In this document: piece by piece, positions 3 through 14,434 of the stretch | Layout of the letters: each line of letters begins with the position of its first letter | Position numbering within the stretch: position 1 is the stretch's first letter | Source of the DNA: an uncultured Clostridia bacterium | GTDB taxonomy: Bacteria > Bacillota > Clostridia > Lachnospirales > Anaerotignaceae | Direction: 5' to 3' | DNA: 42,575 bases | Assembly (NCBI GenBank): GCA_944380455.1 | Contig: CALWHR010000107.1 | Location: forward strand, 1 to 42,575 | Program-made: the position numbers and the translations under genes | Notes under the pieces: model-generated | The model's input: only the letters and a program-made list of their open reading frames with translations | Told to the model about the DNA's origin: nothing | The model's database searches: none

Positions 3-3000
3 AAAAAAAAAAAGAAAAAAATAAAAAAAAAAAATGAAAGTTTGATTGATAAAAACAAAAAAATAGTTATTGAAAATAAAGACCTGCAAAAAAAAGAAGA
101 ATTATATAATAAAAAAATTGAAGAAAAAGAAGAGAGTTTTTATAAAAAATTAGAAGAAAAAGAAGAAATATTTTCCCAAAAATTAAAGGAAAAAGAAGAA
201 ATATTTTCTAAAAAATTAGAGGAAAAAGAAGAAATATATAATAAAAAAATAGAAGAAAAAGAGGAAATATTTCTTCAAAAACTTGAAGAAAAAATTAATG
301 TTATAAATGAAATAAAAAATCAAAATGAAAAAAATGAAAAAGATATCTTAATATATAAAAGAAAACTTAAAGAAAGCAAGAAAATTTCAAAAGATATAGA
401 AAAAAAATATAATATTTTATCAAATTCTAAATTTGGCAGACTGCAAATTAAATATTGGAACTTTAGAAGCAGAACAAAATATGGATTAAAAAGTATAAAA
501 TACAGAATAAGAGAAACTGCAAAGAAATCACCGCTTTTGTGTGAGATTGTATGGAAGTACAGAGAACGTAATAAAAAAAATATTCTATTACCTCAGACAA
601 ATGCTATTCCTATGCTTACTGGAAATGACAAATTATCTAAATTAAATGCAGCACAGAGAAGACAGCGTTTTGAGGAAAATACAGATAAAAATTATTTTGA
701 ATCAATTAAGGAGATATTAGATAAAATTCCAGAAAGTAACGGCGGAAGGTATTATGAAAAGCACAATTATAAAATAGGAATTGTAGCAGATGAATTTTTA
801 TATGCTGCTTTTAAAGATGCTGCCGATTTTGTTTTTATAACGCCTGAAAATTGGAAAGAAGCTGTAAATGTTACAGATTTTCTTCTTATGGTTTCGGCAT
901 GGAGAGGGTTAAATGAAGAGTGGCGCGGAGCAGCACAGGAAAATTCACCAAACAGACAACTCATATATGACATTATTGATGAGTATAGAAATCAGAATAA
1001 AATAACGGTCTTTTATTCCAAGGAAGATCCGCCAAATTACAATAGCTTTTTAGGCATAGCAAAAAAATGTGATTATATATTTACAACTTGTGCCGAAGTT
1101 GTAGAAAACTATAAACGCGATTGTGAGAATGATAATGTCAATGTACTGTGCTTTGGGATAAATCCTCTTTATCATAATCCGGTAGGATTTAAAAATCCGT
1201 TTAAAAAAGATGGTGTAATTTTTTCTGGTTCTTGGATGACAAAATATCCAGAAAGACTGAATGATATGAGGATGCTTTTTGACGGAGTTTTAGAAGGCAG
1301 CAAGGATTTAAAGATTATAGACAGGAATTATAATTATACTAAATCAGAAATTTACAGATACCCTGAGGAATACTGGAAATATGTTTCACCGTCTATTGAC
1401 CATACTTTACTTCAGAAAGTTCATAAATTATATAACTGGGCACTTAATATCAATACTGTAACTGCAAGTACTACTATGTTTGCAAACAGGGGTTATGAGC
1501 TTCAGGCAGCAGGAAATTTATTAATTTCCAACTACAGTGTTGGTGTAAATAATAAACTTCCGATGGTTTACACAGTGACAGATAAATTTGAGATAGGTCA
1601 GATTTTGAATAGTTATTCCGATGATGATTTATACAGACGTCAAGTTCAGGCAATACGTTCTGTTATGACTGGTGAAACTGCTTTTGACAGAGTTGGACAG
1701 GTTATAGAGACTATTGGACTTGAGAAAAATAAAAATGAAAGACGTATTTTAGTTGCTGCAAATAAAATTAATGATGATATTAAAGAAATGTTTGACAGAC
1801 AAAGCTATCAGTTTAAAAAATTAATATCAGAAGATGAGCTTAATGATAAAGTCTTGGCTGAAAGTGATATGATTGCTTTTTTCAATTCAGATATGGATTA
1901 TGGAATGTTCTATCTTGAAGATATGTCAAATGGTTTTAAATATACTGACAGCAGCTATGTTACAAAAGATGGATATTTAGACGGAAACAAGTTAGTAGAA
2001 GGCAAGGAACACGATTATGTAAATGTAATGAAAAATAAATATGTCTCTGTTTTTTGGAGCAAAGATTTTACAGCTGAGCAGCTGAAGAACTTTAACGGAG
2101 AAGTTGCGCTTGAAAATGGCTATAGCATAGACCATTTTAATTATAATACTCAAAAATATAGTATTGAAAAGAAAAAAGAATTTAAGTTATCTGTTATTGT
2201 ACCTGTATATAACAATGGCAAACAGCTTTTAGGAAAAGCTTTTTCATCACTCCAAAGAAGTTCTATGTTTACTGATATGGAAATTTTGTTTGTTGATGAT
2301 GGGTCAACAGATGGTTACACAGATAAACTTGTTAAGCACCTTGAAAGGAACTACAGTAATGTAAAGGCATATCTTTTTAATGATGGAGGAAGCGGTTCTG
2401 CTTCAAGACCAAGAAATAAGGGCGTTGAAATAGCATCATCTGCTTATGTGACATATCTTGATCCCGATAATGAAGCAATTTTTGATGGGTATGCAAAATT
2501 ATACAATTTAAGCACTGAGAATAATTATGATATAACTGTTGGAAATATGCTTAAACTTACTACAGAAATACTTGATGCTAAGTATTTCAGAAATTTTGAA
2601 GAGAAGTATGGTTCAGATGTTATTATAAACGATACTAAAAACTATATGGAAAAAACCAATTTTTCACCTATGAGTATTCAGGCTATGGTTATAAAAAAAT
2701 CTATAATAACTGATAGCGGTATAACTCAGCCGGTTGGCGCTGCCGGTCAGGATACTTTATTCTGCTGGGAACTGTTTTTCAATGCAAAGACAATAAAGGC
2801 TATAAATCTGCCGATTCATATTTATTATGCTGCTGTTGAAGGTTCAACAGTTAACAGTATAGGAAAAAGATTTTTTGAAAAATACTATTTAATAGAGGGT
2901 CCAAGAAGAAAAGCTCTTGAAAAATATGGTGTTTTGGATTTATATATGAAACAAAGATATAATTACTATTTTATAAACTGGACACTTAAAAAGCTTTCAC

Positions 3001-3137
3001 AGGCGAAAAAGGAAGAAGCAGACGAGTGTGCTGAAATAGTTTATAAAATGCACAAGATTTATGAAGATGTTTATCTGAATAACAGCAAAGTAATAAATGA
3101 GTTTGTTGAGACCTGTAAAAATAAGCATACTAATTAA
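3..3137 (+). CDS. Coiled-coil, two-domain glycosyltransferase (5' end outside window)
   Basis: The reading frame is open to the first base of the window, and the only nearby ATG (34) is in another frame. The true start is therefore probably upstream; TTG at 42 is a fallback giving 1031 residues. Residue numbers below count from that TTG. Residues 1-120 are Lys/Glu-rich coiled coil, including six 11-residue repeats at about 22-87. A basic linker follows (about 128-185). Residues about 240-560 resemble CgeB/DUF3880-type GT-B glycosyltransferases. Residues about 715-930 are a GT2 GT-A domain, with the family start motif LSVIVPVYNN and the nucleotide-binding VDDGSTDG at 751-758. Such tandem enzymes decorate surface glycans or flagellin; the acceptor here is unknown. 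It heads the AT-rich glycan locus. I am confident of glycosyltransferase activity, not of substrate. Confidence 0.8.
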   Translation, partial: KKKKKKIKKKNESLIDKNKKIVIENKDLQKKEELYNKKIEEKEESFYKKLEEKEEIFSQKLKEKEEIFSKKLEEKEEIYNKKIEEKEEIFLQKLEEKINVINEIKNQNEKNEKDILIYKRKLKESKKISKDIEKKYNILSNSKFGRLQIKYWNFRSRTKYGLKSIKYRIRETAKKSPLLCEIVWKYRERNKKNILLPQTNAIPMLTGNDKLSKLNAAQRRQRFEENTDKNYFESIKEILDKIPESNGGRYYEKHNYKIGIVADEFLYAAFKDAADFVFITPENWKEAVNVTDFLLMVSAWRGLNEEWRGAAQENSPNRQLIYDIIDEYRNQNKITVFYSKEDPPNYNSFLGIAKKCDYIFTTCAEVVENYKRDCENDNVNVLCFGINPLYHNPVGFKNPFKKDGVIFSGSWMTKYPERLNDMRMLFDGVLEGSKDLKIIDRNYNYTKSEIYRYPEEYWKYVSPSIDHTLLQKVHKLYNWALNINTVTASTTMFANRGYELQAAGNLLISNYSVGVNNKLPMVYTVTDKFEIGQILNSYSDDDLYRRQVQAIRSVMTGETAFDRVGQVIETIGLEKNKNERRILVAANKINDDIKEMFDRQSYQFKKLISEDELNDKVLAESDMIAFFNSDMDYGMFYLEDMSNGFKYTDSSYVTKDGYLDGNKLVEGKEHDYVNVMKNKYVSVFWSKDFTAEQLKNFNGEVALENGYSIDHFNYNTQKYSIEKKKEFKLSVIVPVYNNGKQLLGKAFSSLQRSSMFTDMEILFVDDGSTDGYTDKLVKHLERNYSNVKAYLFNDGGSGSASRPRNKGVEIASSAYVTYLDPDNEAIFDGYAKLYNLSTENNYDITVGNMLKLTTEILDAKYFRNFEEKYGSDVIINDTKNYMEKTNFSPMSIQAMVIKKSIITDSGITQPVGAAGQDTLFCWELFFNAKTIKAINLPIHIYYAAVEGSTVNSIGKRFFEKYYLIEGPRRKALEKYGVLDLYMKQRYNYYFINWTLKKLSQAKKEEADECAEIVYKMHKIYEDVYLNNSKVINEFVETCKNKHTN
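105..302 (+). repeat. Six tandem 33-bp (11-residue) coiled-coil repeats
   Basis: Six consecutive 11-residue units lie inside the first gene, with the pattern aromatic-x-K-K-I/L-E-E-K-E-E-I (for example FSKKLEEKEEI and YNKKIEEKEEI). They are encoded by near-identical 33-bp units. An 11-residue period is a hendecad, which favours a straight or slightly right-handed coiled coil. The runs of A and AAG/GAA codons are prone to slippage, so copy number may differ between strains. Confidence 0.8.
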
Positions 3138-3411: not shown

Positions 3412-5286
3412 ATGAAAACAAAAAGAATTTTTCTAAAGAGTATAGAAAATTTTTATGAAGCTATACAAAATAGAATTAATTTATCTTCAGAATTTTTAAG
3501 TTTTTTAATAGGCATGGTAGGCTTTTATATTGTACATGCATCTTATTTTATTGAGAGACATGTTAATGAAGATTATAGACACTATATAACTGACTTAGCA
3601 GGAAATGCTCAAGTGTTTTTTAGTGGTTCAAGAATTTCTTTAGGCAGATTTTTAGGCGGCTTTACGGTATACTGCAATTCTTGGACTATAGGTTTTATTT
3701 GTGCTTTACTTTTATCATTAACTTGTGTTGTAATTATAAAGTTATTTGAGGTAAAAAATAAAATTAATGCGGCATTAATTTCTTTGGCTGTTGTTTCTTT
3801 TCCAAGTTTAGCCTGTACCTATGGTTATCTGACGATGGCACAAAATGTAAGCATTGCAATTTTTTGTGCAGTTATGTCTGTTTACTTAACAAAAAGATAT
3901 AAATTCGGGTTTATAATAGGTAGTATTTTGCTGATGATATCATTAGCTGAATATCAAGCTTATATTGCTTTGTCAGTAGTTTTATCGCTAATGATGGTAT
4001 TCGTATATTTAATAAATGAAAAGTCAATTAATAAAAGTTTTTTTATTTATTTGCTTAGATACCTGCTAATGGGAATATTAGGTGTAATATTATACTTAAT
4101 TATTTTAAAATTAATTTTAAAATTTAATAATGGCAGCTTGGCTAATTACAGAGGTGTAGAAAGTATGGGAAAGATACCTTTGTTAGAGCTGCCTAAACTG
4201 ATTTCTAACTCATACAGTAATTTTATAAAATTCTTTAAAGGAAGAATTTATTTTTATTTTCCATCGTTTGTTAAATGGTTTTATATTGTTATTGCTATTG
4301 GTTCGATTAATACGATTTTTGAGTATATTAAAATTAAGAATATAAAGATAAAAATAGCAGCGTTAATTTTTATAATAATCTTTCCTTTATCTGTGGATAT
4401 AATTGAGATAATTGCTCCTGAATCCGGTTTAGATGCTATTAGTTCGTATGTATTTGTTATGTGTATAATAGTACCTTTGGGTATGCTGGAATATTCAAAA
4501 AGTAATTGTTTGAAACTGATAACTGGAGTATTAACATTAGGAATACTTACATGTAATTATAGCTCTATCAGCAGATATTATTTATTTTTAGATAGTGTTT
4601 ATGAGCAGACGGCTTTTTTTGAAAATAGATTGTATGCAAGAATAGAAGAAACTGAAGGTTTTGAGTATGGTATGCCTGTTGCAATAATTTCGGGAAAGGA
4701 CGCTCCTATAAATAATACAAACTATAATAATGATACAGAATTTCCTGAATTAAGAGGCGAAAGAGGAATATTTACAAAGTACATTGGTTTGAGTCAGACT
4801 GATGCACGAAATTCACAAAAAACTGTAAATTTATTTCAAGTAATGTTAGGCGCAGATGTATCTATTGCTGATAGTAATGCAATAGAAGAAATTAAGAATA
4901 CAGAAGAATATAGGAATATGGGAATATATCCTGATAAAGATGGAATTAAAGTTATAAATGGTGTTATGGTTGTTAATTTTGTCGATCACTCTATAGGACC
5001 TGACCTTTTAACAGATGATTTTGATATTTTTGCTGAAGAAAATATCGTTACAATAACGAATAATTATAGTTTTGGTGATTTTGAATATGCTTGGTATATT
5101 TATAATGACGGACAGGCAATAGATAAAATTATGTATAGTGATAATAATTCTTTAGAATATACTTTTGAAGCTGATGGCAATTATAGTGTTAAGGCGTTTA
5201 TTATGGATAAATCAAACAATGATAACAGAAAATCTGTAATAGTAAGTGATTTTACAGTAAAAGATGGAATTGTTAGTATTAAATAA
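3412..5286 (+). CDS. GtrII-type membrane glucosyltransferase with C-terminal beta domain
   Basis: A 624-residue integral membrane protein starting at ATG 3412 behind GGGAGG. The N-terminal 400 residues carry about ten hydrophobic helices. Between helices 1 and 2 lie acidic residues and the stretch FSGSRISLGRFLGG, which resembles the GtrII family (serotype-converting O-antigen glucosyltransferases). These act on the outer face, using an undecaprenyl-phosphate-linked sugar made by GtrB and flipped by GtrA. A GtrB/GtrA pair is present at 9995-11355. Residues about 400-530 are soluble. Residues about 531-620 form a beta-rich domain (NNYSFGDFEYAWYIYNDG, then KIMYSDNNSLEY) that is repeated at the end of the next gene. 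That domain faintly recalls Y_Y_Y or PKD-like folds; I do not recognise it firmly. Transferred sugar and acceptor are inferred. Confidence 0.72.
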   Translation: MKTKRIFLKSIENFYEAIQNRINLSSEFLSFLIGMVGFYIVHASYFIERHVNEDYRHYITDLAGNAQVFFSGSRISLGRFLGGFTVYCNSWTIGFICALLLSLTCVVIIKLFEVKNKINAALISLAVVSFPSLACTYGYLTMAQNVSIAIFCAVMSVYLTKRYKFGFIIGSILLMISLAEYQAYIALSVVLSLMMVFVYLINEKSINKSFFIYLLRYLLMGILGVILYLIILKLILKFNNGSLANYRGVESMGKIPLLELPKLISNSYSNFIKFFKGRIYFYFPSFVKWFYIVIAIGSINTIFEYIKIKNIKIKIAALIFIIIFPLSVDIIEIIAPESGLDAISSYVFVMCIIVPLGMLEYSKSNCLKLITGVLTLGILTCNYSSISRYYLFLDSVYEQTAFFENRLYARIEETEGFEYGMPVAIISGKDAPINNTNYNNDTEFPELRGERGIFTKYIGLSQTDARNSQKTVNLFQVMLGADVSIADSNAIEEIKNTEEYRNMGIYPDKDGIKVINGVMVVNFVDHSIGPDLLTDDFDIFAEENIVTITNNYSFGDFEYAWYIYNDGQAIDKIMYSDNNSLEYTFEADGNYSVKAFIMDKSNNDNRKSVIVSDFTVKDGIVSIK

Positions 5287-5315
5287 AGTTATGTAAAGTA
5301 AAAAGGAGACTTTTT

Positions 5316-7073
5316 ATGGAAAGGTATGTTAATAAAAAAATAAAAATTAATACTTTTTTAATAATATTTTTAATAATACTTTTGTTTAATTACATTGTAT
5401 CTAAAAGAATAGTGTATTATGATAGTAATTCTTATTGGACTTTGGGAGATGAAGTCATTAAAAATGGATTTTTGGCTTATCCTGAAAGTTTTAGAGGATA
5501 TTTTTTCCCATGTCTTATATCGCTTTTAAAAGAAATAGGCATTGCAATGTTTAGTTCTAAATGGATACTTTTTATGGTTTTTGGAAGTTTATGTGCTTCC
5601 TTTATAATTACTATAGCTATACCTTCATTATTAGATATTAAAAATATAACAAAAAAGAGATATTTTATTGGAACAATTATTAATACTGTAATATTTTTGT
5701 ATTTTTGGAAAGATTCTATATTATATCCTTTAACAGATATATTTGCGATTTTTTTCTATAGTATAGGATTAATGCTTTTAAATAAAATAATTAATTTTAG
5801 CAAAGAGAAATTTAGTATTATACTATTTTTTATTTCTTTATTTGTAGGTATATTTTTATATTGTGCTTACAATACAAGAACAATATATCTTGTTCCATCT
5901 TTTTTACTTATTATAAGTTATTTTATTTATATGTTTCATAAATTGAAAATAAATAAATACTTAACGATTTGTATTTGTGCAATAGGAATTGTTATAGGAG
6001 GTTCAATAGTTGCTTACCCTCAAATGAAAATAAACCATCAATATACAAACAAATATACTCCTAAGGTATTAACAGAATTTAGATCGTGATATGAATATAG
6101 TTTGAGTGATTGGCAGTTATTGCAGGGAATGAGATATGAAAGATATGAAACTTATGTAGGTGATAAGGTAGGAAATCAAGATACTGGTGGCGTAAGATTT
6201 TATGATTATACAGGAAGTAAGATTGTATCTTTAGAAAATTTACCAAACAATATAAGTCTTTTCCAATTTATTAAATTATTTCTAAAATATCCATTAGATT
6301 TTATAGGAATGTATGTTAGGTCAACTATTAACTATATGACGCCTATTTATTCAGAAATATATGTAAATGATATTTGGAAAGATAAAAGCTTTAATATTTT
6401 ACTAAACGCAATAATTTGGATTATAGCATTTGGTACGTTGATTTTTCAGCCAAAAGAAAAAGTAAGGGAGTGGTTTAAGAATTTTAAATTTTCAGTCCCA
6501 ATTTTTTGTTTTATATTTCCATGTTTAATGATAATACCGGGTGCTCCGGAAACTAGATTCTTTTTGCCAGCATATTTTCTATTGTATGGTTTTGTATGTT
6601 ATAAAATTAATTATAAAGAATTATTTAGTTTATTGAAAAAATATAAATATAGTTTAACAATAATGTTTTTTGCTATTCTTTTTACGTGGATATCTGTAAT
6701 TGGTTCAACTCTTGGAAACACCGGACAGCCAGAAGATGCAATATTAATTTCTGGCATAGAACAAAATTTTGGGGCTCCAGATTTAGTTTCAGCAGACTTT
6801 AAAGTATCATCAAAAGAGAATAAAATTATTATAGAAAATAATTATGATTATGGAGATTATAATTACGCATGGTATATATATTGTAATGAAGAAGCTATTG
6901 ATAAAATAATGTATAGTGATAATAATACTTTAGAGTATGAATTTAAGGAAGATGGAAAATACAGTATTAAATCATTTATAAAAAATACTAAAGATAGCGA
7001 AGACAAACAATCTATAATAGTTTGTACAGTAGATGTTAACAATGGAAAGACAAAAGTGTCTAAAGGGATGTGA
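5316..7073 (+). pseudogene. GT-C-like membrane glycosyltransferase split by in-frame TGA
   Basis: A start at ATG 5316 with AAAAGGAG upstream reads 257 codons to TGA at 6087-6089. The same frame then stays open to 7073, so the intact form would be about 585 residues. The first part begins with a helix, then YYDSNSYWTLGDE, an acidic first loop typical of GT-C enzymes (ArnT/PMT-like, lipid-linked sugar donors), and many further helices. The second part has RYERYETYVGD, more helices, and a C-terminal beta domain (fused residues about 489-580) closely similar to that of the upstream GtrII-like protein. A single change such as TGG to TGA explains the break. No good ribosome-binding site precedes TTG 6102, so restart is doubtful. 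It could be a true mutation, a sequencing error, or two short polypeptides. Confidence 0.72.
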
Positions 7074-7077
7074 TTTT

Positions 7078-8175
7078 ATGAATATACCGGCAAATAGACT
7101 TGACAGAGGTTTTTATAAGTATCAGAAGGAATTTGAACAGAAAGCACTTGATGTATTGCGCTCAGGTTGGTATGTTTTAGGTAATGAAGTGTCTTCTTTT
7201 GAAAAGGAATATGCTGAATATACTGGTGCAAATCATTGTGTTGGTTTGGCAAGCGGATTAGATGCACTTTGGATTGCATTTAGAGTGCTTGGAATAGGCA
7301 AGGGCGATGAAGTGATTGTCCAAGGCAACACTTATATAGCAAGCGTAATGGGAATTACAATCAATGGGGCAACACCTGTATTTGTTGAACCCGATGAATA
7401 TTTCAATATTGATGCTGACAAAATTGAAGAAAAAATTACAAATAAAACAAAAGCTATTCTTGTTGTTCATTTATATGGACAAGCTTCAAATATGGGAAAA
7501 ATAATGGAGATTGCTAAAAAGTATAATCTTAGAGTTGTGGAAGATTGTGCCCAGTGTCATGGTGCACTCTATGATGGAAAAATGACTGGAACTTTTGGTG
7601 ATGTAGGGTGTTTTTCATTCTATCCGTCTAAAAATTTAGGTGCTTTTGGTGATTCAGGTGCAATTACAACAAATGATGCTAAAATTGCTGAAGATGTTAA
7701 AGTATTCAGAAACTACGGAAGTGAAAAAAGATATTATAATAAAGTTGTAGGAACAAATTCACGATTAGATGAAATACAGGCTGGTTTACTTAGGGTAAGA
7801 CTTAAACATTTAAAAGAACTTAATGAAGAGAGAAAAGAAATATGTGAGCGATATTTGTCTTGTATTGATAATAAATTAATTATTTTGCCAACTGCAAGAG
7901 AAAATGCAACAACAGTATGGCATCAGTTTGTAATAAAATGTGAATACAGAGACGAATTAATTGAATACTTAAAAAATAAAGAAATAGGTACTATTATACA
8001 TTATCCAATTCCGCCTCATTTGTCAGAAGCATATAATTATCTGAATATTAAGGAAGGTTCATTGCCTATAACTGAAAAATATGCAAAAACTGTATTATCA
8101 ATACCATTATATAATGGTATGACAAAAGAAGAACAGGACTATGTCATAGATGCTATTAATAATTTTAGGAAGTGA
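7078..8175 (+). CDS. dTDP-3-keto-sugar aminotransferase (FdtB/QdtB-type, DegT/DnrJ/EryC1)
   Basis: A 365-residue PLP-dependent sugar aminotransferase. ATG 7078 is chosen over the in-frame upstream ATGs because TAAAGGGA sits just before it and the product then starts [11 protein letters not shown], as family members do. K185 in [12 protein letters not shown] is the expected Schiff-base lysine. Other DegT-family marks are GVGLASG-like GLASGLDAL near the N-terminus, the EDCAQCHGA stretch and the NYGSEKRY region. With a 3,4-ketoisomerase at 9595 and RmlA/RmlB downstream, the likely reaction is glutamate-dependent amination of dTDP-3-keto-6-deoxyhexose to a 3-amino-3,6-dideoxyhexose. Whether the product has galacto (Fuc3N) or gluco (Qui3N) configuration depends on the isomerase and cannot be told here. 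Confidence 0.86.
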
Positions 8176-8180
8176 ATTTT

Positions 8181-8723
8181 TTGAAAACAAGAGAATTAGA
8201 ACTTAAAGATGCTGAGTATATGTTAGAATGGATGAAAGACGAAGGTACAAAAAAAGTTTTTAAATTTAACTTCAATAATATGACTCTTCAAGATACACAA
8301 AATTTTATTATTAACAGCAGAGAGGATAATACTAATTGTCATTTAGCTGTTGTTGATGAAAATGATGAATATTTAGGTACTGTAAGTCTTAAAAATATTG
8401 ATTATGAAAATATGAATGCAGAATATGCTATTAGTTTAAGAAAAAAAGCTTTTGGTAAGGGTGCTTCAAGTTTAGCAACATCAGAAATTTTAAAAAAAGC
8501 TTTTTATGATTTAGGATTAAAAAGAGTCTATCTTAATGTTTTAAGTGATAATTTAAGAGCTATTTCTTTTTATGAAAAATTTGGTTTTATATATGAAGGT
8601 GAATTTAAGGAACATATTTTTATAAACAACACTCTAAAAAATATAAAATGGTATCGAATGATGAAACAAGAATATGAAAACAAAATGTTAACTAATTGTC
8701 AATCGGGGGGCAGAATTATTTAA
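8181..8723 (+). CDS. GNAT (RimJ/RimL-like) acetyltransferase
   Basis: A 180-residue GNAT-fold acetyltransferase. TTG 8181 is preferred because AGGAAG lies about 9 bases upstream; GTG 8172 is in frame but only one base from that site. The RimJ/RimL layout is visible: RELELKDAEYMLEWM at the start, the LGTVSL strand, an acetyl-CoA-binding region around KKAFGKGASSLATSEIL, and the NLRAISFYEKFGFIYEGE ending typical of the fold. Its stop region follows the aminotransferase without a gap, so it is probably a sugar N-acyltransferase of the same pathway (compare WecD and PseH, which are GNATs). It could instead modify a protein or a second sugar. A run of six G lies near its 3' end. Confidence 0.75.
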   Translation: MKTRELELKDAEYMLEWMKDEGTKKVFKFNFNNMTLQDTQNFIINSREDNTNCHLAVVDENDEYLGTVSLKNIDYENMNAEYAISLRKKAFGKGASSLATSEILKKAFYDLGLKRVYLNVLSDNLRAISFYEKFGFIYEGEFKEHIFINNTLKNIKWYRMMKQEYENKMLTNCQSGGRII

Positions 8724-8741
8724 CATATCTTTTTTCATTCT
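8705..8741 (+). other. G6 tract and hairpin between the two acyltransferase genes
   Basis: GGGGGGCAGAAT (8705-8716) can pair with ATTCTGCCACC, about 20 bases downstream, forming a stem of about 10 bp with one mismatch. No T-tract follows, so it is not a normal terminator. It ends about 20 bases before the ribosome-binding site of the next gene and could affect its translation or mRNA stability. The six-G run is also a potential slippage site near the end of the GNAT gene. Confidence 0.35.
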
Positions 8742-8776
8742 GCCACCTAGCGGCATGAATGAAAGGAGAAATGATC

Positions 8777-9580
8777 ATGGGTGCAAATCAAACAATAGGA
8801 AAGAATGTTATTATTAAAGAAAATGTTATATTGGGTGATAATATAAATATTGGTGATAATGTTTACTTTGATGCGAACTGCATTATTCGTGATAATGTTA
8901 CAATCGGAAATAATAGTACTATAGGAGCAAATTGCATTATTGGTGAGTATCAGATGGACTTTTATACTAATGGCAGAAAATCTGCTTATCATCCTCTTAC
9001 AATTGGTGAAAATGATTTGATAAGAAGTGGTACAATTATTTATGGTGATTGTGTAATTGGAAATGATTTTCAGACAGGACATATGGTTTCTATTAGAGAA
9101 AAAGCTAATATAGGAAACCATGTAAGCGTTGGTACACTTTCTGATATACAGGGATTTTGTGAGATTGGTAATTATGTTAGAATGCATAGTTACTGCCATA
9201 TAGCACAAAAAACAGTTATAGAAGATTATGTATGGTTATTTCCAAGAGTTACTTTTACGAATGATCCAACACCTCCATCTGACAGACTTATTGGTGCAAC
9301 TGTAAAATCTTTTGCTGTTATTTCTACTGGTTCAACTATTTTACCTGGTGTAACAATAGAGGGAGATTCTTTAATTGCTGCAGGAGCAACAGTTGTAAAG
9401 GATGTTAAGGCTTTTTCTGTGGTAGGTGGAGTTCCTGGCAAAGTGATAGGTGATATAAGAAATATAAAGAATCATTTTACAGGAGAACAGGTATATCCTT
9501 GGAGATATAGCTTTAAACGAGGTATGCCATGGCAGGATTGCGGGTATGAAGCTTGGGATGAGGCCAATAATAAAGAATAA
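8777..9580 (+). CDS. Left-handed beta-helix (hexapeptide-repeat) sugar N-acyltransferase
   Basis: A 267-residue acyltransferase of the LbH class. ATG 8777 is chosen because AAAGGAGA lies at ideal distance; ATG 8771 would be too close. From residue 5 on there are many imperfect hexapeptide repeats ([LIV]-G-x-x-x-x pattern: IGKNVIIKENVILGDN, IGDNVYF, IGNNSTIGANCIIGE), interrupted by a loop containing YHPLTIGEND and returning with ILPGVTIEGDSLIAAGATVV. This is the fold of QdtC/FdtC-type dTDP-3-amino-3,6-dideoxyhexose N-acetyltransferases. Its place between the aminotransferase and the ketoisomerase makes that the most likely role, with acetyl-CoA as donor. The chain beyond the helix ends in an aromatic, Trp-rich segment (YPWRYSFKRGMPWQD). 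Acyl group and exact sugar are not determined. Confidence 0.82.
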   Translation: MGANQTIGKNVIIKENVILGDNINIGDNVYFDANCIIRDNVTIGNNSTIGANCIIGEYQMDFYTNGRKSAYHPLTIGENDLIRSGTIIYGDCVIGNDFQTGHMVSIREKANIGNHVSVGTLSDIQGFCEIGNYVRMHSYCHIAQKTVIEDYVWLFPRVTFTNDPTPPSDRLIGATVKSFAVISTGSTILPGVTIEGDSLIAAGATVVKDVKAFSVVGGVPGKVIGDIRNIKNHFTGEQVYPWRYSFKRGMPWQDCGYEAWDEANNKE

Positions 9581-9594
9581 TTAAGGTGAAATAA

Positions 9595-10002
9595 ATGAGA
9601 AACTATAAGTTATTAAATTTTAAAGTTAATGGCAATGAAATGGGAAAACTTGTGGCAATAGAAGGATTAAATCAAATACCTTTTGAAATTAAAAGAATAT
9701 TCTATATTTATGGTGTCAAAGGTGACGCAGTTAGGGGCAGACATTCAAATCGTAACAGTGAGTTTGTTATGATTAATGTTAAAGGAAGTGCAGATGTACG
9801 TTTACATGACGGAAGTAAGGAGCATGTTGTTAATCTTTCAAAACCAAATGAAGGACTTTATATACCTAAGCTTATGTGGAAAGACATGTATAATTTTTCA
9901 GATGATTGTGTAATGCTCGTTTTATCAAGTGAAGTATATGATGAAAATGAGTATATTCGTGACTTTGATGAATTTTTAAAGGAAGTGTCAAAGAATGAAT
10001 AA
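9595..10002 (+). CDS. dTDP-4-keto-6-deoxyhexose 3,4-ketoisomerase (FdtA/QdtA, WxcM-like cupin)
   Basis: A 135-residue single-domain cupin. It should convert the dTDP-4-keto-6-deoxyglucose made by RmlB into the 3-keto isomer used by the aminotransferase at 7078. Family features seen are RIFYIYGVKGDAVRGRH before the active-site strand, then SEFVMINVKGSADVRLHDG, GLYIPKLMWKDMYNF, and the hallmark ending VLSSEVYDENEYIRDFDEFL. The usual RGxHAH motif reads RGRHSN here: the first His (H50) is kept and the second is Asn (N52). This may be a subfamily variant. The gene overlaps the next by 8 bases (ATGAATAA), which suggests translational coupling with the GtrB-like enzyme. Confidence 0.84.
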   Translation: MRNYKLLNFKVNGNEMGKLVAIEGLNQIPFEIKRIFYIYGVKGDAVRGRHSNRNSEFVMINVKGSADVRLHDGSKEHVVNLSKPNEGLYIPKLMWKDMYNFSDDCVMLVLSSEVYDENEYIRDFDEFLKEVSKNE

Positions 10003-10951
10003 ATTATCAATAATTATACCTGTTTATTATAACAGTGAAACGCTTGAAGCTCTTTATAACGATATAGAAAAAGAAGTTTTGCCTCAATTAAATGATTATG
10101 AGATAGTAATGGTTGATGATGGTTCAGGCGATTCTTCTTGGGAAGTTATGAATTTAATTGCAGAAAAAGACAGTAATGTAAAACTTATAAAGTTATCAAG
10201 AAATTTTGGTTCGCATGCAGCTATCTATGCTGGACTTTCTTACTGTACAGGTGACTGTGCTACGATAAAAGCTGCTGACTTACAAGAGCCTTCCAGTATA
10301 TTGATTGACATGTATAAAAAATGGGAAGAAGGCAACAAAGTAGTTTTAGCGGTAAGGAGTGACCGGAAGGAGAGCTTTTCTCAAAAACTATTTGCAAATC
10401 TTTACTATTGGCTGGTTAGAAAGTTTGCAATACCTAAAATGCCAAAGGGCGGATTTGACTGTTATTTAATTGACAGAAAAGTTATAGATGTGTTAAAGTG
10501 CCTTGATGAGGTAAATTCTGCCGTAACATTACAAATTTTATGGTCGGGATTTAAAACGGATATGATATATTATGTAAGAAAGAAAAGAGAAGTAGGAAGT
10601 TCAAAGTGGACTTTAGCAAAGAAAATAAAACTTGTTGTTGATTCAATGATAGGTTTTTCTTTTTTCCCTATTCGTTTTATGTCGGTCTTAGGTATATTTT
10701 TTACTGTAATAGCGTTTTGTTGGGGTATTTGGGTTTTAATTGGCAAAATGCTTGGCAGAGTACCGGTAGAAGGTTGGACAAGTTTAATGATTATAGTTAT
10801 TTTATCATCAGGAATGATTTTGACAACTTTAGGCATATTGGGAGAATATATATGGCGAGCTTTGGATGCATCGAGAAACAGACCAGTTTTTATTGTTGAT
10901 GAAAAAAACTTTAATTGTAATACAAGCGCAGAAGAAAATGAGGATAGTTAA
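9995..10951 (+). CDS. GtrB-like undecaprenyl-phosphate glycosyltransferase
   Basis: A 318-residue GT2 enzyme of the DPM1/GtrB type. It transfers a sugar from a nucleotide donor to undecaprenyl phosphate at the inner membrane face. Residues 1-220 are the GT-A catalytic domain: LSIIIPVYYN at the start, VMVDDGSGDSSW as the first acidic motif, and KAADLQEPSS as the DxD-like metal site. The SRNFGSHAAIYAGLSYC stretch is characteristic of GtrB/DPM1 proteins. Two C-terminal transmembrane helices lie at about 225-300. The start overlaps the ketoisomerase stop, and the stop overlaps the start of the GtrA-like gene (TAATG). Donor sugar is unknown; an acylated dTDP-3-amino sugar from the neighbouring genes is possible, as is UDP-glucose. 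Confidence 0.82.
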   Translation: MNKLSIIIPVYYNSETLEALYNDIEKEVLPQLNDYEIVMVDDGSGDSSWEVMNLIAEKDSNVKLIKLSRNFGSHAAIYAGLSYCTGDCATIKAADLQEPSSILIDMYKKWEEGNKVVLAVRSDRKESFSQKLFANLYYWLVRKFAIPKMPKGGFDCYLIDRKVIDVLKCLDEVNSAVTLQILWSGFKTDMIYYVRKKREVGSSKWTLAKKIKLVVDSMIGFSFFPIRFMSVLGIFFTVIAFCWGIWVLIGKMLGRVPVEGWTSLMIIVILSSGMILTTLGILGEYIWRALDASRNRPVFIVDEKNFNCNTSAEENEDS

Positions 10952-11355
10952 TGTATTTAAATAGTGAGTTGAAATTTAAATTATTACAGCTAATTAGATT
11001 TATTTTTGTTGGATTTTCAAATACACTAATTTCATTAATTGTGTATTATGTCCTTGTATATATTGGAGTAAATTATTTAATTAGCAATGTGGTAGGATAT
11101 ATAATAAGTTCAATTTGGGGGTACTTTTTAAGTAAGATATGGGTTTTTAGTGCAAAGAAAGTAAGTGTTAAAGAATCTCTTATTAAGTTCTACATTACTT
11201 ACGGAAGCTCTTTTTTACTTAATGTTTGTTTGATGTTTATATGGGTTAACATATTTGAAATTTCAAAATTAGTAGCTCCGATTTTAACTTTATTTTTTAC
11301 TATACCTTATAATTTCATATTAAGTAAATTTTGGGTTTTTAAATTGAAAGATTAA
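10951..11355 (+). CDS. GtrA-like membrane protein (putative lipid-linked sugar flippase)
   Basis: A 134-residue protein with four hydrophobic helices, the size and layout of the GtrA family. The opening LIRFIFVGFSNTLISLIVYY and the ending YNFILSKFWVF, echoed by YFLSKIWVF mid-protein, are the family's two signature stretches. GtrA proteins are thought to flip undecaprenyl-phosphate-linked monosaccharides made by GtrB to the outer face. Its start codon overlaps the stop of the GtrB-like gene, the usual gtrA/gtrB coupling in reversed order. The matching outer-face transferase would be the GtrII-like protein at 3412 or the broken GT-C at 5316. Confidence 0.83.
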   Translation: MYLNSELKFKLLQLIRFIFVGFSNTLISLIVYYVLVYIGVNYLISNVVGYIISSIWGYFLSKIWVFSAKKVSVKESLIKFYITYGSSFLLNVCLMFIWVNIFEISKLVAPILTLFFTIPYNFILSKFWVFKLKD

Positions 11356-11388
11356 TAATTTTAGTTTGTTTTTTAATAGGAGATTGAT

Positions 11389-12270
11389 ATGAAAGGCATT
11401 ATTCTTGCCGGAGGCTCCGGCACACGTCTTTATCCGTTAACTAAATCGGTTTCAAAGCAGGTTTTGCCTATATATGACAAACCTATGATATATTATCCTT
11501 TGTCTACCCTTATGCTTGCTGGAATAAAGGAAATATTAATTATATCTACACCAAGAGATATGCCAGTTTTTGCAGAGCTTTTAAAAGATGGTTCAGACTT
11601 AGGTCTTAATATTTCTTATGCCATGCAGATGAATCCAAATGGACTTGCTGAGGCATTTATTATCGGCGAAAAATTTATAGGCAATGACTCTGTGTGTCTT
11701 GTTTTAGGTGATAATATATTCTATGCAAGCAGGTTTTCGGAAATGCTTGAAAACGCCAAATGTAAAGTTGAATCTGAGGGCGGTGCAGTTATTTTTGGCT
11801 ATAACGTGCCTAATCCGTCTGCTTTTGGTATAGTTGAGTTTGATAAAAACGGAAATGTACTTTCAATAGAAGAAAAGCCAGAAAATCCAAAATCAAACTA
11901 TGCTGTTCCAGGACTTTATTTTTATGATAACTCCGTAATAGAAATAGCCAAAAATGTTAAACCTTCTGCAAGAGGAGAGCTTGAGATAACATCTGTAAAT
12001 AATAAATATTTAAAGCAAAATAAACTAAAAGTTTTGCTTTTTGGCCGTGGCATGGCGTGGCTTGATACAGGAACTCATGAAGGACTTTTGGAGGCATCTA
12101 ATTTTGTTTCTATTATTCAGAAACGTCAGGGTCTTTATGTATCTTGCATTGAAGAAATTGCATACAGAAAAGGCTACATAACAAAAGAAAAGCTTGTTGA
12201 ATTAGCTCAGCCGATGTTAAAAACTGATTATGGAAAGTATCTTATGCGTGTTGCGGAGGAAAAAATATGA
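11389..12270 (+). CDS. rfbA: Glucose-1-phosphate thymidylyltransferase RmlA
   Basis: A 293-residue cytosolic nucleotidyltransferase that makes dTDP-glucose from dTTP and glucose-1-phosphate. The N-terminal [11 protein letters not shown] signature is intact, followed by [20 protein letters not shown] and the LGDNIFY metal-binding region; [20 protein letters not shown] and [11 protein letters not shown] are also diagnostic. Length is normal for the short RmlA class. The start has AGGAGA at the right distance, and its end overlaps rmlB by 4 bases (ATGA). Codons here are richer in G and C than in the genes before it, so it may belong to an older part of the locus. Confidence 0.96.
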
Positions 12271-13319
12271 AAAATATACTTGTAACTGGCGGAGCTGGTT
12301 TTATAGGCTCAAATTTTGTAAAGCAGATGCTTGATAAAGAAAAAGAATTTGATTTGCTTATTAATCTGGATTTGCTTACTTATGCCGGAAATCTGGAAAA
12401 TCTTAAAGAAATTGAAAATGATAAAAGATATAAATTCATAAAAGGCGATATATGCGACAGAAACCTTGTTGAAAACATATTTAATGAATATGATATTGAT
12501 ACGGTTGTAAATTTCGCTGCAGAAAGCCATGTAGACAGGAGTATTGAAGACCCTGAAATATTCTTAAAAACTAATATTTTTGGTACACAGGTGCTTCTTG
12601 ATGCAGCCAAAAAATATTGGAAGATAAATCCTGATGATAAATATTCAAAAGAATATAAATCTGGAGTAAAATATTTGCAGGTTTCAACAGATGAGGTTTA
12701 TGGTGCTTTGGGCAAATCCGGGATGTTTACAGAAACAACACCTCTTTCACCAAACAGCCCTTACTCAGCATCAAAAGCAAGTGCGGATATGTTTGCAAGA
12801 GCTTATTATGAAACTTATGCTCTGCCTGTAAACATAACACGTTGTTCAAACAATTACGGTCCTTATCAGTTTCCTGAAAAGCTTATTCCGCTTATGATAA
12901 ATAACTGTAAAACGGGTAAAAAACTGCCTGTATATGGTGACGGAATGCAAATTAGAGATTGGCTTCACGTTAGCGACCATTGTGCTGCAATAAGAACTGT
13001 TTTGCATAAAGGTATTGTTGGTGCAGTTTATAACATAGGCGGAAACAATGAAAAAGCTAATATAGAGATTGTTAAGCTTATTATAAAAGAGCTTGGTGCT
13101 TCGGAAAATTTAATTGAACATGTGAAAGACAGGCCAGGGCATGACAGAAGATATGCCATTGATAATACTAAAATAACTTCTCAGCTTGGATGGAAGCCTG
13201 AATATACATTTGAACGTGGGATACATGAAACAATTCAGTGGTATTTAAAAAATGAGGACTGGCTTAAAAATATTACATCAGGAGCTTATGAAAAGTATTA
13301 CGAAAATATGTATAAGTAA
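12267..13319 (+). CDS. rfbB: dTDP-glucose 4,6-dehydratase RmlB
   Basis: A 350-residue extended short-chain dehydrogenase that converts dTDP-glucose to dTDP-4-keto-6-deoxyglucose. The NAD-binding [10 protein letters not shown] opens the protein. [14 protein letters not shown] and [10 protein letters not shown] contain the family's catalytic Thr-Asp-Glu, and [12 protein letters not shown] gives the Tyr-x3-Lys pair. [15 protein letters not shown] and [13 protein letters not shown] complete the substrate site. rmlC and rmlD are not in the window, so its product probably feeds the ketoisomerase at 9595 rather than rhamnose. It is translationally coupled to rmlA. Confidence 0.96.
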
Positions 13320-13336
13320 TGTAAAGGAGCAACAAA

Positions 13337-14434
13337 ATGAAAAAAGTAATGGTTGTATTCGGCACACGCCCGGAAGCTATTAAAATGTGTCCGCTTGTAA
13401 ACGAGTTAAAATCAAGAAAAAGCTTTGAAACAGTTGTTTGTGTAACAGGTCAGCACAGACAGATGCTCGACCAGGTTTTAAAGGCGTTTAATGTAGAGCC
13501 AGAGTACGATTTATCCATTATGAAGGATAAGCAGACTCTTTTTGATGTTACAACAAACATTTTAAACAGAATAAAAGAAGTTCTTGAAAAGGAAAAGCCT
13601 GATGTAGTACTTGTTCATGGAGACACAACTACTACATTTACAACGGCCTTAGCTTGTTTCTACCTTCAGATACCTGTAGGTCATGTAGAGGCAGGACTTA
13701 GAACATATAATATTTATTCTCCATACCCTGAGGAGTTTAACCGTCAGGCTGTTGGTATTATGGCAAGGTTTAACTTTGCGCCTACAGAGGTTTCAAAGGG
13801 CAATCTTTTAAGAGAAGGCAAAAGTGAGGACACAATTTTTGTAACAGGAAACACTGCCATAGATGCCCTTAAAACAACTGTCCGTGACGATTATGAAAAT
13901 GAGCACTTAAAATGGGCAGAGGACAGCCGCCTTATAATGCTTACAGCTCACAGACGTGAAAACTTAGGCGAGCCAATGCACCATATGTTCAGAGCAATAC
14001 GCCGTATTGTAGACGAAACGCCAGACATAAAAGTTATATATCCAATACACATGAACCCTGTTGTAAGAAAAGCGGCAGATGAGGAACTTGGTGATGATGA
14101 TAGGATTCGCATTATAGAACCTCTTGATGTGCTTGATTTCCATAACTTCCTTTCAAGGAGCTATCTTATACTTACAGACAGCGGCGGAATACAGGAGGAG
14201 GCACCTTCACTTGGAAAGCCTGTTCTTGTAATGCGTGACACAACAGAAAGGCCTGAAGGTATTAAGGCCGGAACACTTAAACTTGTTGGAACAAATGAAG
14301 AAACTATATACAACGAGTTTAAAAAGCTTCTTACAAGCAAAGAAGAATATGACAAAATGAGCAAAGCGTCAAACCCTTACGGTGATGGTTTTGCTTGCAG
14401 GAGAATTGCTGATATACTGGAGAAACATTTATAA
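13337..14434 (+). CDS. wecB: UDP-N-acetylglucosamine 2-epimerase (non-hydrolysing)
   Basis: A 365-residue GT-B-fold epimerase interconverting UDP-GlcNAc and UDP-ManNAc, a precursor for teichoic-acid linkage units and other wall glycans. Family marks are VFGTRPEAIKMCPL at the N-terminus, TGQHRQMLD, VHGDTTTTF, HVEAGLRTYNIYSPYPEE, LTAHRRENLG, and the C-terminal LTDSGGIQEEAPSLGKPVLV with RDTTERPE. The start is set by AAAGGAG. It follows rmlB by 17 bases in the same direction. No ManNAc dehydrogenase (WecC) is in view, so free UDP-ManNAc is probably used. Confidence 0.95.
   Translation: MKKVMVVFGTRPEAIKMCPLVNELKSRKSFETVVCVTGQHRQMLDQVLKAFNVEPEYDLSIMKDKQTLFDVTTNILNRIKEVLEKEKPDVVLVHGDTTTTFTTALACFYLQIPVGHVEAGLRTYNIYSPYPEEFNRQAVGIMARFNFAPTEVSKGNLLREGKSEDTIFVTGNTAIDALKTTVRDDYENEHLKWAEDSRLIMLTAHRRENLGEPMHHMFRAIRRIVDETPDIKVIYPIHMNPVVRKAADEELGDDDRIRIIEPLDVLDFHNFLSRSYLILTDSGGIQEEAPSLGKPVLVMRDTTERPEGIKAGTLKLVGTNEETIYNEFKKLLTSKEEYDKMSKASNPYGDGFACRRIADILEKHL

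Follow-up and report, generated by a model that had tools for sequence, protein, structure and literature searches.

A beta-sandwich domain common to surface-glycan transferases, a methyltransferase and an exporter permease in an uncultured Clostridia bacterium

The window analysed here is a stretch of 42,575 nucleotides from contig CALWHR010000107.1 (C107) of an uncultured, anaerobic Clostridia bacterium of the Anaerotignaceae, whose assembly (GCA_944380455.1) is fragmented into 176 contigs and is 88.6% complete. Pfam and other model searches identify the first ~15 kb of the window as a surface-glycan gene cluster, with the following features.

42 to 3137, plus strand: coiled coil with two glycosyltransferase domains (Glycos_transf_2)
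3412 to 5286, plus strand: GtrII-family membrane glycosyltransferase of 624 aa (PF14264, 8.4e-38, 130.7 bits, residues 77-350)
5002 to 5283, plus strand: shared beta-sandwich domain, copy 1, GtrII residues ~531-624 (BLASTP, Y_Y_Y score, AF2 model)
5316 to 7073, plus strand: GT-C-like membrane glycosyltransferase, 585 aa with a TGA read through (homologue in genome G059)
6087 to 6089, plus strand: in-frame TGA splitting the GT-C gene (open reading frames; homologue continuous across the site)
6780 to 7070, plus strand: shared domain, copy 2, residues ~489-585 of the fused GT-C frame (BLASTP, AF2 model)
7072 to 14434, plus strand: sugar-nucleotide genes (DegT aminotransferase, acetyltransferases, FdtA, RmlA, RmlB, WecB)
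9995 to 10951, plus strand: GtrB-like polyprenyl-phosphate sugar synthase, GT2 (PgfS/ArnC-like models, scores below cut-offs)
10951 to 11355, plus strand: GtrA-type flippase (PF04138, 1.3e-23)

The GtrII protein is thus encoded together with a GtrA flippase and a GT2 enzyme of the PgfS/ArnC type, the three making up a set that adds a lipid-linked sugar outside the membrane. Its neighbour matched no Pfam family, and its assignment to the GT-C superfamily, which is marked by a catalytic aspartate in the first outer loop and 7-13 transmembrane helices, is tentative. Crude hydropathy gives nine hydrophobic segments, as it does for GtrII, and the sequence YYDSNSYW can be seen by eye after the first transmembrane segment. 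The fused frame of the initial annotation comes down to a single in-frame TGA at 6087-6089, which interrupts the gene, while the G059 homologue (36% identical, residues 11-466) reads through the site; the TGA could represent decay to a pseudogene, a strain variant or a consensus error of the assembly. The homologue lacks the shared domain. It possesses instead two extra transmembrane segments and a different, beta-rich C-terminal domain without a Pfam match (L123), and the C-terminal accessory domain of this GT-C enzyme therefore seems to be exchangeable.

That the GtrII and GT-C-like proteins end in a common domain of about 90 residues was the central claim of the initial annotation, and both the claim and the limits it gave for the domain are borne out by BLASTP (47 of 102 positions identical, 109 bits, E between 1e-29 and 3e-29). 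The membrane bodies differ, as had also been claimed, and are without detectable relation: with composition correction off, BLASTP returned only matches of low-complexity level (E at least 0.008). The description of the two copies as near-identical holds for the segments YAWYIY and AIDKIMYSDNN and fails for the domain as a whole, which is 44-50% identical depending on the alignment. Similarity does extend to the DNA, at 73% identity over 166 nt, and this likeness between neighbouring genes is what would lead one to see in the pair a recent duplication or gene conversion of adjacent genes, devoid of functional meaning. Synonymous sites between the copies, however, are saturated (pS 0.70, dS ~2.1) with dN at 0.38 and dN/dS at ~0.18, so that the pair is under purifying selection, and the resemblance of the DNA, including the exact run AIDKIMYSDNN, results from constraint on the protein, which alone keeps the copies alike. 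A recent exchange between the two genes is accordingly rejected, an explanation of the shared domain in those terms is very improbable, and the pair likely originated by an old local duplication.

What kind of domain is shared was approached through AlphaFold (AF2) models, built on alignments of the two window copies with five copies of one relative. Both window copies are modelled as an FnIII/PKD-like sandwich with identical strand order, at a pLDDT mostly above 90 over the domain for copy 1 and a model mean of 87.6 for copy 2, and the segment IDKIMYSDNN falls in a conserved C-C' hairpin. In structural comparison the copy-1 model is closest to FnIII receptor and monobody domains (VIA Z ~9), with PKD1 (4l9d) at 8.8, while the Wzt CBD (8dky_A) gives a weak Foldseek match (E 0.014, TM 0.32) and is not among the VIA matches listed. 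As modelled, then, the fold is a generic FnIII/PKD/Ig-like sandwich, by itself no sign of sugar binding, and the two invariant tyrosines of the domain look structural.

By sequence the domain is best called a borderline relative of the Y_Y_Y family (PF07495, gathering cut-off 26.6 bits), with which it shares a G-x-Y strand. Copy 1 scores 27.9 bits in the genome scan, 27.3 as the domain alone and 23.4 within the whole protein; copy 2 stays below the cut-off at 17.3 bits in the genome scan and 15.5 otherwise, and a copy on a Wzm permease, described below, reaches 22.5-25.7 bits. Sequence searches also found the triple-tyrosine protein PRK14081 and, as the one match in the PDB, an endoglucanase PKD domain (2c26) at a weak E of 0.0085. 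The initial annotation had proposed comparison with Y_Y_Y, PKD and carbohydrate-binding folds, holding that membership of a well-described family found broadly outside glycan genes would count against a glycan-binding module. That is partly the case, since copy 1 is a borderline member of Y_Y_Y, a broad family; both copies are modelled as PKD-like, and the match to the Wzt CBD is weak. The characterised Y_Y_Y domain, that of BT4663, belongs to a periplasmic sensor, where it lies beside propellers and serves as a spacer engaged in dimerisation (PMC5121618), whereas here the domain is an accessory of glycan-assembly enzymes.

A profile built from the window pair uncovered two more copies in the genome, both on contig C158. 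One is the C-terminus of a SAM methyltransferase, for which no kinase part is seen, and the other is the N-terminus of a Wzm-type ABC-2 permease (ABC2_membrane, PF01061, 5.6e-17, residues 135-329) adjoining Wzt, the ABC_tran domain lying in the next gene. The methyltransferase gene (L025:2765-3900, G000:C158) carries a frameshift near its start, with MENKHNVPETYLKRK... in one frame and VLEVGCGGGYV... in another; with the TGA at 6087 counted in, disruptions affect two of the four host genes in this assembly. The four copies form two pairs, GtrII with GT-C at 50% and methyltransferase with Wzm at 40%, each pair on adjacent genes, a deeper tree of domain copies being weakly supported. Copies from one genome are not independent of one another, and profile E-values overstate confidence for those copies that were used to build the profile.

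Several comparisons of sequence and gene order make it very probable that contig C158 adjoins the window on its left. The last open reading frame of C158 and the first of the window correspond to residues 15-193 and 354-1232, respectively, of one 1236-aa protein of a relative (G228); the two contig ends, which have no exact overlap, show 93% identity over 97 nt; of WecC and WecB, the first is encoded on C158 and the second in the window; and a second relative (G035) presents the matching order Wzm, Wzt, methyltransferase/coiled coil, glycosyltransferase and GtrII. The join itself is inferred from these agreements, under which the window gene at 42-3137 and L025:17-763 appear to be halves of one methyltransferase/coiled-coil/glycosyltransferase gene split between the contigs. 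Within the coiled coil, the C158 half of that gene has a stop codon at a position that encodes leucine in the window. Thus the genome holds four copies of the domain, very probably in one cluster, on GtrII, GT-C, methyltransferase and Wzm.

Beyond this genome the domain is rare. With a 15-copy profile at E <= 1e-4, 7 of the 392 genomes of the order have a match, this genome included, and a 398-genome sample of the phylum added two further matches, both weak. In five relatives the strong matches lie in a glycan locus every time, as do all 17 copies that were aligned, from six genomes. The hosts are DUF6270 proteins with an N-terminal copy (G017, G031, G035), a radical SAM protein, also N-terminal (G031), heparinase II/III-like proteins with one or two C-terminal copies (G017, G031, G228), GtrII with a C-terminal copy (G035), Wzm with an N-terminal copy (G122) and a two-domain protein with an N-terminal hydrophobic segment (G017). 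Its hosts in glycan loci, GtrII, GT-C, methyltransferase, Wzm, heparinase-like, DUF6270 and radical SAM proteins, count as carbohydrate-active or glycan-export proteins. Remote profile matches outside glycan assembly comprise a cohesin-type protein (G090), an amidase (G704) and a PRK14081-like protein (G746).

Several of these hosts have features of their own. The DUF6270 proteins with an N-terminal domain recur in three genomes (L022:11078-12184, L020:12961-14040, L023:7614-8687) and show by eye an SGNH-like GSCVSRD motif; in the 17-copy alignment their domains cluster across genomes, that is, by enzyme rather than by gene cluster. Heparinase II/III-like proteins carry two tandem copies within glycan assembly loci (L022:7818-10310, L021:6116-8137), a lyase-like protein being unexpected inside a biosynthetic cluster. 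Nearly all the GtrII homologues examined end before the domain, which among them occurs only here, in G035 and, weakly, in G216; like the GT-C homologue of G059, they show that the host bodies exist without it. Many Wzm reading frames of the order are 330-500 aa long, and the domain was considered as a general N-terminal extension of Wzm. This was rejected, in that the Wzm proteins examined carry other extensions, either a unit of transmembrane segment, beta domain and transmembrane segment or hydrophobic segments, and the domain is found on Wzm only in this genome and in G122. The different extension seen in many Wzm of the order is of about 190 aa, consisting of a transmembrane segment, an outer beta-rich domain and a second transmembrane segment (L088, L089, L091, L093, L094, L097, L100, L103, L111), and the one tested had no Pfam match.

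A distribution as rare and patchy as 7 genomes in 392, together with the generic fold and the spacer role of Y_Y_Y in BT4663 (PMC5121618), might be expected of a ligand-free spacer or stability domain that has spread by chance among neighbouring genes. Such a domain is improbable here. In GtrII, GT-C and the methyltransferase, three of its four hosts, the domain ends the protein and so separates nothing, and a pure spacer is for that reason unlikely. The purifying selection on the window pair, with saturated dS, also argues against it, as does the finding that strong matches, though on diverse enzymes, lie only in glycan loci.

On which side of the membrane the copies reside differs among hosts. 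In Shigella, GtrII has its C-terminal tail in the periplasm (PMC3259042), and because both window proteins have nine hydrophobic segments, an odd number, both window copies are probably extracytoplasmic. The methyltransferase and radical SAM hosts, by their chemistry, are cytoplasmic, and homologous proteins and hydropathy would place the N-terminal copy of Wzm in the cytoplasm as well: before the normal Wzm start, the domain-bearing Wzm shows no hydrophobic segment (maximum KD 0.54). The domain would therefore be found on both membrane faces, and a module used only for export is ruled out by the Wzm and methyltransferase copies. The initial annotation had spoken of an exported module, reasoning that a cytoplasmic location would speak against it and that a profile search would show whether its hosts are always extracytoplasmic glycan enzymes. 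For the window copies the exported location probably stands; further hosts were indeed found in glycan loci, yet some of them, including the DUF6270 and radical SAM proteins of relatives, would place the domain in the cytoplasm.

This topology bears on the main rival interpretation, in which the domain is a protein-protein module whose copies pair mutually or with one common partner, giving a membrane-linked assembly line or homodimers. Sandwiches of the FnIII/Ig type are classic folds for binding proteins, and in structure the model is matched best by receptor FnIII domains; in BT4663 the Y_Y_Y domain takes part in dimerisation (PMC5121618); the most similar copies sit on adjacent genes (50% and 40%); and the DUF6270 copies track the enzyme and not the cluster. 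A single common complex is nonetheless impossible if the copies lie, as is probable, on opposite membrane faces, so that two separate assemblies would be required, and in two genomes the heparinase-like lyases, whose family acts on glycans, have two copies apiece. We regard a role confined to protein-protein contacts as possible but doubtful.

The reading that we favour, with a probability of about 0.5, is that the domain is an accessory FnIII/Ig-like sandwich that docks the enzymes and the exporter of one ABC-transporter-dependent pathway onto the polysaccharide made there. Glycan binding by the domain is what we infer from the hosts, since the feature common to all of them is the glycan. At the cytoplasmic face, the copies on the methyltransferase and on the N-terminus of Wzm would grip the chain, or check it, while it grows or once it is capped; at the outer face, the C-terminal copies of GtrII and GT-C would keep the exported chain in place during the addition of side-chain sugars from lipid-linked donors. 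Against docking stand the generic fold, for which FnIII domains of receptors and monobodies are the best matches (Z ~9), the weakness of the match to the Wzt CBD, the structural look of the invariant tyrosines, and the spacer and dimerisation role of Y_Y_Y in BT4663 (PMC5121618). The DUF6270 copies, moreover, follow the enzyme rather than the cluster, as expected of an enzyme-specific role, and the assembly has disruptions in two of the four host genes.

Characterised systems provide parallels for individual hosts. The GT-C enzyme ORF12 of Citrobacter youngae O1, of family GT136, has an Ig-like C-terminal domain that binds the acceptor O-polysaccharide, and the CBMs of EmbC and AftD contact the acceptor (PMC11127046). 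The window copies resemble the ORF12 CBM and those of EmbA/B/C and AftD in kind and position, being Ig-like domains of beta structure that form the C-terminal end of a GT-C-type enzyme, one that acts outside the membrane on a polysaccharide exported by an ABC transporter and modifies it; in ORF12, however, acceptor binding by a domain of 150 aa has been shown, whereas here the domain is of ~90 aa, its binding is a proposal, and the family is also present on cytoplasmic proteins of the cluster. That the ORF12 CBM is dispensable for activity (PMC11127046) weighs against the docking proposal. The Wzt CBD, known from E. coli O9a and A. aeolicus, accepts the capped chain (PMC9445017) and is likewise a beta-sandwich on an O-antigen ABC exporter at the cytoplasmic face, but in this cluster it is the permease Wzm that bears the domain, at its N-terminus, Wzt is without it, and the fold match is weak. 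In the model search, the Wzt of the cluster (282 aa) and that of G122 (279 aa) gave matches to ABC-transporter ATPases alone, with no domain found C-terminal to the nucleotide-binding domain in either. Finally, ORF6 of Klebsiella O7, a methyltransferase-kinase chain terminator, has an Ig-like predicted CBM (PMC11231755), so that there too a methyltransferase from a glycan cluster dependent on an ABC transporter bears an Ig-like domain; the methyltransferase here differs in showing no kinase part and in carrying a domain related to those on other proteins of the cluster.

A bolder version of the docking proposal holds that one chain-reading domain licenses successive glycan steps on both membrane faces and spreads from gene to neighbouring gene within a cluster, every participant thereby coming to read one sugar: the methyltransferase would perhaps cap the chain, the Wzm copy would serve as the export checkpoint in place of the Wzt CBD, and the side-chain transferases outside the membrane would carry the domain as well. 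We consider this version rather unlikely as a whole.

CBMs on single glycan-assembly proteins are known, from Wzt, from a GT-C enzyme and, as a prediction, from a chain terminator. In the literature we found no description of one domain family common to a methyltransferase, Wzm and two outside-acting transferases of one cluster, and no paper combining 'Y_Y_Y domain' with 'glycosyltransferase'. Should the favoured reading be correct, one chain-reading part would act on both sides of the membrane, and the export checkpoint would reside on Wzm instead of Wzt. Chain binding by the domain would then provide a direct test of how modifying enzymes and exporters recognise one and the same polymer.
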